A DNA stretch of 63,133 bases. Source: an uncultured Lachnospira sp. (GTDB lineage Bacteria > Bacillota > Clostridia > Lachnospirales > Lachnospiraceae). Below the pieces are notes generated by a model. That model worked only from the letters and a program-made list of their open reading frames with translations. It was not told the origin of the DNA and searched no databases. The DNA lies in NCBI GenBank assembly GCA_944381165.1, contig CALWKC010000013.1:1-63133 (forward strand), in the 5' to 3' direction. The position numbers and the translations under genes are program-made. Within the stretch, counting starts at the first letter, position 1. The number at the start of each line of letters is the position of its first letter. Positions 19,983 through 59,125 of the stretch are shown piece after piece.

Positions 19983-21397
<1,415 letters not shown>

Positions 21398-21517
21398 GTT
21401 TTTTGTGTATTTCACTTAATTTTCTGTTGTTTTTTTAATAATATTAATTAATTTTGTTATTAAATAATACTCTACAATTTTTTTCACTTAAAATTATTAA
21501 GTCCTTCCATTATTTGT

Positions 21518-21697
21518 ATTTTATAGTAACAGTTCAGCCCGCTCATTCGCAAAGCCGCGCCTACGGCGCTTTCCCGCTGCTTTGCAGCTGACTTTGCTCA
21601 TAATTGGGCGCTCAGCTCATAAGCTGCATGACAGGCAAATTCATGCAAGCATGATTTGCCTGTCATGCAGCTTATGGCTGAACTGTTACATTTTATA
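21518..21697. mobile_element. 164-bp MITE with 8-bp target duplication
   Basis: The element spans 21526-21689. Its ends are perfect 14-bp inverted repeats, GTAACAGTTCAGCC, and it is flanked on both sides by the 8-bp direct repeat ATTTTATA (21518-21525 and 21690-21697). It encodes no protein. Inside is a near-perfect ~28-bp stem with a 2-nt loop (arms 21618-21646 and 21649-21676) plus small hairpins. IS66-family elements make 8-bp duplications and have ends beginning GTAA, so an IS66-type transposase is the likely mover; that link is inference. It occupies most of the 533-nt gap between gdhA and the LCP gene, between their promoters. Confidence 0.85.
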
Positions 21698-21718
21698 TAA
21701 AATTTCTTCTTTTTATTA

Positions 21719-21746
21719 TTGTTATTTACAATTTTTGTTGTATAAT
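21719..21746 (+). promoter_or_regulatory. Sigma-A promoter of LCP gene
   Basis: -35 TTGTTA (21719-21724), 16-nt spacer, -10 TATAAT (21741-21746). Confidence 0.7.
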
Positions 21747-21763
21747 TAAAAAATATCCATGCT

Positions 21764-21788
21764 CTCTATAATCAGCTGACTTATAGAG
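21764..21788 (+). promoter_or_regulatory. Leader hairpin of LCP gene
   Basis: CTCTATAA and TTATAGAG pair across a 9-nt loop holding CAGCTG, followed by a T-rich stretch. It could act as a weak attenuator in the leader; no evidence beyond the structure. Confidence 0.4.
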
Positions 21789-21850
21789 CTGTTATTTTTT
21801 AGAAAGCATTTACAATATATTATACTTTAAAACTGATAAAGGGGATAATT

Positions 21851-23440
21851 ATGTCAAACTTTTTTACGAAGACCAATAAAGACATGAAATATATATTTAA
21901 GAAAAGTTCCTCATTAAGCAAAAAGGAGAAACGCAGAAAAAAACGCGGTATAGCGGCTGTGATAGGTCTGCTTTTAGTTTTTTTGCAGCTTGTAATCTCA
22001 GGACTTTTTCTGTTTGAGATTTTCAAGCTCAACATTCTTCCAACAAAGTATTTAATTATGATGCTTATTGTTCTGATTTTAATACTTCTGTATAATTTTA
22101 CTTCTCAGTTTACCAGGGCGCACTACTTCGGAAAAATTCTGTCAGTTCTCATGTCGGCAGTGCTTGTTTTCGGTTATCTTGTAGGTTCAAAAGTAAACTG
22201 GGCATTCGGAAATATTACTAATATAAAAATCCAGACAGATGTTGTCGATGTAATTGTTCTGTCAAACGACAGCGCTCAGAGCATCAGCGACACCCTCTCA
22301 TACAGCTATGGCTACAACAGCACAATAGAAAATGATTTGTCAAACAAGGCAATAGAAGAGATAAATAATAAATATAAAACTACCTTAAACACATCAAAAT
22401 ATTTAAACTGGAATGATTTGACAGAGGCTCTCTATTCCGGAGAGATAAAAGCAATGCTTATGACTGAAGCAATGCGCTCTTCTATCTCCGAGGAGGATGA
22501 GACATTTTCGTCTCAGACAAGAGTTGTCGAACAGATAAAAATAACCTCCACTACAACAGTTCAGAGCGGTACAAAGAAAGCAAGCGGAGAGCCATTCATT
22601 TTATATATTTCAGGCAATGACGGCTACGGTGCAATTTCAGACGTCGGAAGAAGCGACGTAAACATACTTGCCGTTGTCAATCCTGAAACAAGACAGGTGC
22701 TTTTAATATCGACGCCTAGAGATTATTACATTACAATAAGCGACGCGAGAGGCAATACAGGTCTGGATAAGCTCACTCACGCCGGAAATGCCGGTATTCA
22801 GTATTCTATTGACGCTCTTGCCGACCTCTACGGAGTTACTGCAGATTATTTTATAAAAGTCAATTTTGACGGATGCGTAAAGATTGTAGATGCACTCGGC
22901 GGTATAACAATTAATTCCACTGTGGAATTTACAAACGGCTATAACGCCGCTCCTGCAAGGTATCACTTTGTTGTAGGTCCTAACGAATGTGACGGAGATA
23001 TGACGCTTGCCTTTGTACGTGAGAGAGAAGCATTTGCGACAGGCGATTTCCAGAGAGGGAAAAATCAGCAGGCAGCTATTGCCGCTATGATTGATAAGGC
23101 AACCTCTCCTGCAATTCTCACAAATTATGCTTCTGTGCTTGACGCCGCAACAGAGGTAATGTACACAAACATGCCTTCCAGCATGATTACCGACCTGATT
23201 AAAGACCAGCTCTCAGATTCTACAGCATGGAACGTCCAGTCATATTCGGTAAGCGGACGGACACAGACCAACAGATGTACGGTGTACGGTCTTACAGCCT
23301 CAACTGTAGTTCCTGACTATGATACCGTAAATATCGCAATCAAGCTTATAAACAGAGTTTACAACGGAGAAGTATTTGACGTTGACACTTATGTCGAAGG
23401 TCTTGAAAATCCAACCGAAGCGTCTGACGCAGTCAATTAA
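21851..23440 (+). CDS. LytR-CpsA-Psr (LCP) family ligase
   Basis: 529 residues. Basic cytoplasmic start, three membrane helices within about 30-120, an extracellular linker, then the LCP domain from about 250: GRSDVNILAVVNPETRQVLL, STPRDYYI, DKLTHAGNAG and the late AFVREREAF...GDFQRGKNQQ with its conserved arginines. LCP enzymes transfer undecaprenyl-linked polymers such as teichoic acid or capsule to peptidoglycan. AAAGGGG precedes the ATG by 7 nt. The polymer it attaches is not evident from neighbours. Confidence 0.94.
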   Translation: MSNFFTKTNKDMKYIFKKSSSLSKKEKRRKKRGIAAVIGLLLVFLQLVISGLFLFEIFKLNILPTKYLIMMLIVLILILLYNFTSQFTRAHYFGKILSVLMSAVLVFGYLVGSKVNWAFGNITNIKIQTDVVDVIVLSNDSAQSISDTLSYSYGYNSTIENDLSNKAIEEINNKYKTTLNTSKYLNWNDLTEALYSGEIKAMLMTEAMRSSISEEDETFSSQTRVVEQIKITSTTTVQSGTKKASGEPFILYISGNDGYGAISDVGRSDVNILAVVNPETRQVLLISTPRDYYITISDARGNTGLDKLTHAGNAGIQYSIDALADLYGVTADYFIKVNFDGCVKIVDALGGITINSTVEFTNGYNAAPARYHFVVGPNECDGDMTLAFVREREAFATGDFQRGKNQQAAIAAMIDKATSPAILTNYASVLDAATEVMYTNMPSSMITDLIKDQLSDSTAWNVQSYSVSGRTQTNRCTVYGLTASTVVPDYDTVNIAIKLINRVYNGEVFDVDTYVEGLENPTEASDAVN

Positions 23441-56404: not shown

Positions 56405-56486
56405 AACAAATGCATCAGCTCAGGCAGCGCCGTCCGCAAAGATGCCTGTGGCGCCCTCCCGCCGCTGAGCAGCTGACTTTGCTCAT
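56405..56486. repeat. Decayed copy of MITE internal module
   Basis: GCAGCTGACTTTGCTCAT (56469-56486) is identical to 21584-21601 inside the MITE, and the preceding ~50 nt show the same order of CGCAAAG, GGCGC and TCCCGC. The terminal inverted repeats are not seen here. Confidence 0.7.
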
Positions 56487-57149: not shown

Positions 57150-57365
57150 CTGCGTTATCTCCCATATCGCTTCGCGATACGGGAGATACGCGCTGTCGCG
57201 CCCTTACCTCCTCCACTTTATCCTACGAACACTGCGTTATCTCCCATATCGCTTCGCGATACGGGAGATACGCGCTGTCGCGCCCTTACCTCCTCCACTT
57301 TATCCTACGAGCACTGCGTTATCTCCCATATCGCTTCGCGATACGGGAGATACGCGCTGTCGCGC
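57150..57365. repeat. 82-bp tandem repeat, two full copies and a partial
   Basis: Copies at 57150-57231, 57232-57313 and 57314-57365 are nearly identical. Each holds a 33-nt hairpin with TATCTCCC/GGGAGATA outer arms, a TATCGC/GCGATA inner stem and a TTC loop, then CGCGCTGTCGCG. TATCCTACGAGC (57301-57312) is also inverted at 57439-57450, enclosing the last copy and the groEL terminator. With the terminator this fills the 391-nt gap 57064-57454. Confidence 0.9.
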
Positions 57366-57370
57366 TATGT

Positions 57371-57432
57371 CATAACAAAAATAAGACCGCACTGATGTGC
57401 AAGCACATCGTGCGGTCTTATTTTTGTTATGT
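57371..57432. terminator. groEL terminator
   Basis: A perfect 20-bp outer stem, ATAACAAAAATAAGACCGCAC with its complement, encloses an inner 7-bp stem GATGTGC/GCACATC. A and T runs lie within the arms, so it can act on both strands. Confidence 0.88.
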
Positions 57433-57454
57433 CGCAGCGCTCGTAGGATACGCG

Positions 57455-59125
<1,671 letters not shown>

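Follow-up and report, generated by a model that had tools for sequence, protein, structure and literature searches.

In the window, i.e. the whole stretch of 63,133 nucleotides that was analysed, a 164-bp element at 21526-21689 is located between gdhA (19983-21317, minus strand), whose product is an NADP-specific glutamate dehydrogenase, and a gene of the LCP family (21851-23440, plus strand). Both neighbours were identified by profile matches, which confirms the position between gdhA and LCP given in an earlier note on this DNA. The element is bounded by perfect 14-bp inverted repeats, GTAACAGTTCAGCC at 21526-21539 on the plus strand and its exact complement at 21676-21689 on the minus strand, and is flanked by two copies of the 8-bp target duplication ATTTTATA, at 21518-21525 and 21690-21697. 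No ORF of 60 or more amino acids overlapping the element was found. The length, the perfect terminal repeats, the duplication and the lack of a coding frame had all been described in the earlier note, and they are present in the sequence as described. The exact 14-bp end occurs twice in the whole window, both times at this element. The two strands of the element have folding energies of -96.4 and -99.0 kcal/mol compared with shuffle means of -49.6 and -53.4, i.e. 11-12 standard deviations below the shuffles; together with an end sequence unique to the element, this indicates that the structure is not due to chance. At the gathering score, Rfam gave no match anywhere in the window. Within 21300-21870, 7 promoter-like sites were counted, where shuffles gave 3.4 (sd 2.0), and a terminator was not predicted. 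A phage search with the gdhA-LCP stretch returned its sole match on the gdhA side.

The interior can be drawn as two arms. The branched arm (21540-21611) has an outer helix, a helix CAAAG/CTTTG and two inner hairpins. It contains the conserved motifs ATTCG (21545-21549) and CTCAT (21597-21601), whose minus-strand forms CGAAU and AUGAG we read as a tandem G.A loop. The long hairpin (21618-21676) is formed by 23 uninterrupted pairs, 21618-21640 with 21654-21676, with the arms 13 nt apart; beyond a one-base bulge there are 4 more pairs and a 4-nt loop, and the loop region reads GCAAGC (GCUUGC on the minus strand). The internal stem of the earlier note is therefore present, with 23 + 4 pairs and a 4-nt loop instead of the 28 bp and 2-nt loop proposed. 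Among the copies described below, the pairing of the long hairpin is kept though its sequence varies.

Further copies, for which the earlier note had advised a search, exist in the own genome and in many others. In the own genome (G000, 2.57 Mb in 60 contigs), a 180-bp query gave 38 matches, some of them reverse self-matches of the palindrome, and the 14-bp end with at most 2 mismatches occurs 75 times compared with 12 for the reversed pattern. When 41 genomes (the own and 40 relatives) were searched, matches were obtained in four: G000, its sister species G020, G010 of the same genus (a single weak match), and G024, from a different genus, which carries many copies with identical 14-bp ends and full-length interiors about 70% identical. 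A scan of the genome contig collection for exact end pairs 129-189 bp apart yielded at least 118 stretches. Their hosts are mostly titled Lachnospiraceae, or genera of that family; the other titles are Clostridiales, Eubacteriales, Eubacterium, Clostridium, Clostridiaceae, Ruminococcus, Bacillus or just bacterium. The viral contigs scanned for exact end pairs gave 0. At L158, L161, L166, L199 and similar loci, the same 14-bp ends enclose other folded interiors, and some of these elements carry extra internal copies of the end sequence.

For the analysis of target duplications, the elements counted were end pairs that do not overlap, are separated by 36-260 bp and have no more than 3 end mismatches in total; they come from the fetched loci, which include 80 of the at least 118 genome-contig stretches. 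This gave 139 elements (15 in G000, 14 in G020, 26 in G024 and 84 elsewhere), with five insertions common to G000 and G020 counted twice. Perfect repeats at exactly 8 bp flank 52 of the 139 elements, compared with 0.10 expected when flanks are swapped between elements. When one mismatch is allowed, the count becomes 88 compared with 0.82 under the same swapping, and so the search for 8-bp flanking repeats suggested in the earlier note was borne out. For G000 alone, 1 of 15 is perfect and 11 of 15 have no more than one mismatch, where 0.00 and 0.14 would be expected. The excesses at other lengths are far smaller, for example 9 versus 2.19 at 7 bp with at most one mismatch, and 2 versus 0.01 for perfect repeats of 9 bp. 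Where an 8-bp duplication has a single mismatch, it falls at position 1 or 8 in 24 of 36 elements (binomial p 1.7e-7), or in 20 of 32 by our own count when four pairs shared by G000 and G020 are counted once. The first or last base is affected in 14 of 16 cases in G000 and G020 together (these four pairs counted twice), and the pattern is absent in G024 (1 of 3). At L012 and L131, comparison with the empty allele shows that the changed base is the one adjoining the element; at L010, the element and the duplication are separated by one extra base. These joint changes may result from error-prone repair, or from one donor base carried over.

The earlier note had also proposed a comparison for empty sites. 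The joined flanks of 19 insertions (10 in G000 and 9 in G020) that were unpaired in the shared-site comparison were searched in both genomes, and ten of the sites were inspected. Three clean empty sites with a single target copy were found between the sister species, two in G020 (at L012 and L010) and one in G000 (at L131); they concern family members other than the window copy. The L124 site is probably empty, with an imperfect repeat. At L032, L135 and L027 the element is absent from the other genome and the junction is ambiguous, at L138 one end only remains in G000, and L033 and L128 are occupied in both genomes. Among the remaining nine, judged from the flank matches, L016, L023, L028, L125 and L127 either show a gap as long as an element or have an end next to the flank, and these insertions are probably common to both genomes. 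L126 appears to be empty, with little right flank to judge from, and L011, L014 and L132 are ambiguous. The earlier note had named a lack of further copies, or orthologous loci without any empty site, as results that would speak against its reading; both further copies and empty sites exist.

The insertion in the window is itself found in G020, again between two copies of ATTTTATA, and the 200-bp flanks of the two genomes are 91.5% and 95.5% identical. The insertion therefore predates the split of the two species, and the description of the element as inserted recently had to be given up. In the gdhA loci of 20 relatives of the same genus, gdhA recognisably adjoins LCP in 13, while the neighbour is unrecognised in 7. 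Among the 13, the element is present in G020 and absent in 12, which are too divergent for a single target copy to be identified. Copies also differ in length at shared sites: one measures 165 bp in G000 and 56 bp in G020 (L009, L148), and the remaining shared G000/G020 sites measure 182/165, 115/163, 164/180 and 55/54 bp. A short form can thus arise when a copy that is already inserted loses part of its interior.

These observations bear on whether the element moves at all. It might be a stationary structured RNA gene or cis-regulatory leader related to Clostridiales-1 (Rfam RF01699), with a closing stem that merely resembles transposon ends. The 8-bp duplications, the empty sites and the dozens of copies at unrelated loci contradict such a gene, and so does the absence from 12 of the 13 recognisable gdhA-LCP loci, even though a full-length RF01699 match and strong covariation, both described below, would suit it. 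In the available excerpt of PMC2864571, Clostridiales-1, which occurs in Clostridiales and the human gut, is tabulated as a probable RNA that is probably not cis-regulatory. We consider the stationary gene extremely improbable.

With the element taken as mobile, the next matter is its transposase. The earlier note had looked to an IS66 copy with the same ends in the host genome; no IS66-type transposase was found in G000, where PF03050 (IS66 DDE) has no match at E 0.001. Among 24 relatives, PF03050 matches occur in 5, including G024 and not G020. The loci in G024, G008, G012, G013 and G015 were rejected as partner, with no end of at most 2 mismatches; both G024 loci lie at or near contig ends, and the absence of ends there is not decisive. 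An end pair 1795 bp apart in G000 (C14:41879-43673) was likewise rejected as an autonomous copy, as it holds no transposase and its ORFs include an aminotransferase-like gene (named by eye). In 41 MITE-bearing genomes, located through the genome-contig scan, PF03050 matches were present in 17 and none at E 0.001 in 24. One of these searches led to Sporofaciens musculi WCA-9-b2, which we take to belong to Lachnospiraceae, where three weak-scoring PF03050 loci are elements of 1814-1817 bp with the ends GTAACAGTTCAGCCTTGCGA and perfect 8-bp repeats. A search with the transposase gave 11 match rows representing six copies, some intact and some broken. Each of the six is bounded by GTAACAGTTCAGCCTTGCGA at its two ends and flanked by perfect 8-bp repeats; this count leaves out two further PF03050 fragments of the genome. 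The outer 14 bp of this 1.8-kb IS are identical to the terminal repeat GTAACAGTTCAGCC of the window element, and by inspection only the ends are common to the two.

The S. musculi IS has one long ORF and no tnpA or tnpB. Its 494-aa transposase scores 69.5 bits with PF03050 (cut-off 23.1) and 137.1 bits with the NCBIfam IS66 equivalog, below the cut-off of 180. In a five-sequence alignment, D260, D311 and E437 are invariant with respect to four IS66 TnpC proteins, to which the identity is 18-21%. The IS thus has the DDE_Tnp_IS66 domain, the DDE residues, the GTAA ends and the 8-bp duplication of the IS66 family, and does not have the three-gene layout tnpA-tnpB-tnpC. As a single-ORF subgroup of the family is known, we call the partner IS66-type. 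No solved structure matches the transposase at E 0.01, and the nearest plasmid and phage proteins among the matches listed, several of them annotated as IS66 transposases, are about 28-31% identical. The S. musculi IS is the probable autonomous partner of the MITE, and the earlier view of a non-autonomous element with 8-bp duplications and IS66-type ends is supported by this IS and by the duplication counts of the family.

The partner is distributed unevenly. Transposase matches near the same exact 14-bp end occur in G044, G061, G064, G075 and G443; the G443 protein is 97-98% identical to the S. musculi transposase, and G061 has a 1.26-kb IS derivative with the same ends and AAGTTTTT on both sides. 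As G443 belongs to the family of the window's host, the near-identity of its protein suggests that this host is one of the Lachnospiraceae. When 66 genomes were searched at E 0.001, the transposase was found in 14, all among the 41 MITE carriers, with some of the matches weak and distant. An S. musculi-type transposase is present in 0 of 25 genomes comprising that of the window and 24 relatives (G000-G024), and, among the matches listed (at most three candidates scored per genome), one of E 1e-60 or better occurs in 1 of 397 genomes of the family. The MITE is therefore common in places where its partner is seldom found. Such a distribution would fit a mover from another transposase family that also generates 8-bp duplications, the ends being common with the S. 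musculi IS through convergence or capture, since most MITE carriers searched are without an IS66-type transposase. Against it, the outer 14 bp are identical, all six S. musculi copies have 8-bp duplications, and transposase matches lie beside the same exact end in the five genomes above. Besides, the 142-bp element L236 has these ends around a middle that consists, by eye, of the transposase gene's last codons and the downstream hairpin, which indicates that deletion of the IS can yield a MITE-sized element. We judge a mover of another family very unlikely.

The window element is short and gene-free, with terminal inverted repeats and a target duplication, while the family is multicopy with empty orthologous sites and shares its ends with an autonomous element. 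A transposase in the same genome is the MITE attribute not seen in G000 (0 matches); it is not essential to the definition, because movers can be lost or come from outside. It is close to certain in our assessment that the element is a MITE with IS66-type ends.

On the other hand, the interior needs an explanation of its own. The starting set was 90 elements of 140-172 bp. The motif [AT]TTCG near one end, together with a GCGCT-like motif, selected 59 of them, 37 of these were less than 92% alike, and 23 of the 37 interiors were aligned. RNAalifold predicts 44 pairs for the 23 interiors, with changes on both sides in 19 of the 44. Paired cells amount to 96.6% compared with 86.4 in the shuffled alignments, and the covariation score is 0.300 compared with 0.113 shuffled and at most 0.076 when slid, while further pair types show no excess (40 versus 39.0 in shuffles). 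ATTCG and CTCAT are invariant or nearly so in the alignment; the constancy of ATTCG is partly built in, as the interiors were selected partly by [AT]TTCG. A wobble test on 33 sequences gave 13 G.U and 11 A.C, favouring neither strand, and as no strand is singled out an RNA function is putative. The alignment suggests that the interior is a conserved two-armed fold and not leftover transposase sequence.

The fold resembles a catalogued family. With 221 bases around the element and a lowered threshold, a full-length match to RF01699 was obtained at 21529-21686 on the minus strand with 46.3 bits, below the gathering score of 48, and E 1.9e-9. The alignment spans the closing stem, the GCUUGC long hairpin and the AUGAG/CGAAU arm, leaving the model's third hairpin uncovered; matches to a microRNA, rli52 and snR11 in the same list were read as chance. 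One run on 20 MITE loci gave RF01699 matches at E 1e-5 in 3 of 20 (40-41 bits), and another run on 20 loci placed one MITE copy, L174, above gathering with 48.8 bits. G042 has at least 59 matches of up to 52.3 bits, and both loci inspected there are MITE copies with these ends. In the multi-genome search, the one match in G000 is a MITE copy (the L012 element, E 1.1e-6); the window copy was not reported, and so the counts from this search are lower bounds. At eight loci where the same MITE ends enclose a different or more strongly diverged interior, the MITE had no RF01699 match at E 0.01; one of these loci, L215, contains a separate strong RF01699 copy.

The reverse comparison employed a covariance model, R1, which was derived from the 23 interiors after removal of the ends and applied to 42 RF01699 locus ids together with 12 control loci. 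All 30 rows at E 0.01 or better are in RF01699 loci (28 ids, with L392 being the same place as L420). The best E-value is 4e-7 and the top nine rows are all from G023, with the E-values to be taken as rough. Up to E 1, the only control match is the MITE in L225 with E 0.13. Model R1 misses RF01699 loci L390, L411, L439 and the L215 copy, among others. From covariance-model matches in both directions, homology between the MITE interior and Clostridiales-1 appears likely.

Selection on the interior is a separate matter. Hairpin-templated repair or gene conversion could maintain the pairing of an unselected interior, and the RF01699 match would then reflect little more than a long stem within a closing stem. 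A long palindrome can correct itself, the wobble pairs show no strand preference, many MITE copies stay below the RF01699 cut-off and some RF01699 copies are missed by R1, all of which would agree with an interior free of selection. The covariation extends to the branched arm, however, and the eight loci with other interiors, some with equally long stems, lack an RF01699 match on the MITE at E 0.01. Also, R1 finds RF01699 copies at E-values down to the best one given above, on a rough calibration, despite having no ends in it. An unselected interior is thus unlikely, though it deserves more weight than either of the two alternatives discussed earlier.

Two further places in the window were noted in the course of this work. 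At 56433-56485 there is a decayed fragment of the element core without ends (R1, 23.8 bits, E 6.4e-4), overlapped by a BLAST match to the element query. The stretch 57219-57450, downstream of a groEL-like gene (57455-59074, minus strand, named by eye), contains a 31-nt inverted repeat (57362-57392/57410-57440) nested in the 18-nt repeat TATCCTACGAGCACTGCG, with a further TATCCTACGAGCACTGCG copy at 57219, and is perhaps another repeat element. R1 gives a weak match at 57353-57430 (E 0.0039).

RF01699 copies are themselves numerous. Matches were found in 21 of 26 chosen genomes, with at least 32 in G023, at least 41 in G024 and at least 46 in G074, and part of the weaker matches may stem from MITE copies; G024 houses both kinds of element. 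The outer ends of RF01699 copies are TGAT...ATCA, beyond an extra hairpin left out of the Rfam model. A second-end rule applied by script was fitted by 24 of 32 copies taken from the better matches, and perfect 5- or 6-bp flanking repeats surround 15 of these 24 compared with 0.70 expected. At L435 and L436 in G024, RF01699 copies follow one another head to tail in groups of three, at a spacing of about 130-150 nt. Judged from these sequence features, the RF01699 family itself looks mobile, and the same folded core seems to occur within two different types of transposon ends. It is possible, at slightly less than even chances, that the Clostridiales-1 fold is a selected module that moved between the IS66-type (8-bp) and the TGAT...ATCA (5-6-bp) transposon systems. 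The main text of PMC4081043 does not name RF01699.

Considering all the evidence, our best explanation, which we hold to be probable, is a MITE moved by an IS66-type transposase, with an interior that is a conserved fold related to Clostridiales-1. The IS66-type DDE transposase from a single-ORF 1.8-kb IS with the same ends would bind both GTAACAGTTCAGCC repeats and move the MITE into A+T-rich sites, where repair of an 8-nt stagger would give the 8-bp duplications; these cutting and repair steps are presumed. The window copy may have been moved by the S. musculi transposase or by a close relative of it that this genome has since lost. After insertion, copies can shrink in place by internal deletion, as seen at the shared site with 165 and 56 bp. 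The folded module would help the element itself by presenting or protecting the ends, or by giving a stable or harmless transcript. We infer that aiding the element is its most likely job, because the fold is also present in another repeat family, whose ends differ.

If the Clostridiales-1 fold has indeed moved as a selected module between the two transposon systems, a catalogued bacterial small RNA family is a mobile genomic repeat in Lachnospiraceae, and a folded RNA or DNA aids the spread of short elements even where no transposase remains. The present findings offer a mobile-element explanation, with a plausible transposase named, for an Rfam family listed in 2010 without function. They also reveal a MITE family in which the 14-bp ends are the same from one genus to another and the covarying fold of the interior is preserved, with the transposase seldom encountered; its copies could otherwise get annotated as small RNA genes. 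Whether bacterial MITE folds are kept by RNA selection, by DNA hairpins in transposition or by palindrome self-correction is testable now.

No published description of this element was found in the literature searched, part of which was available as excerpts. When compared with known systems, the element is similar to MITEPsy1 of Pseudomonas syringae in being short and gene-free, with the inverted ends of a known IS and a target duplication, whereas MITEPsy1 has 100 nt, 4-nt duplications and a probable IS5-type parent, and the available excerpt makes no mention of a conserved folded core such as the present one (PMC3189936). IStrons, in the available excerpt of PMC4227781, likewise join a structured RNA to an insertion sequence, and differ in carrying a self-splicing group I intron, while no ribozyme was recognised in the MITE. 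The element agrees with single-ORF IS66-type ISs in its GTAA ends and 8-bp duplications, unlike them it has no gene; the DDE_Tnp_IS66 domain with three invariant acidic residues is present in the partner IS. The partner IS departs from other IS66 elements in its single ORF, without tnpA and tnpB, and in the 18-21% identity to four TnpC proteins; its subgroup is presumably the ISBst12-like one. Finally, the MITE shares with the Clostridiales-1 RNA the long hairpin with the GCUUGC loop, the AUGAG/CGAAU arm and the closing stem. It is without the third hairpin and has IS66-type ends, while RF01699 copies have TGAT...ATCA ends and 5-6-bp repeats.
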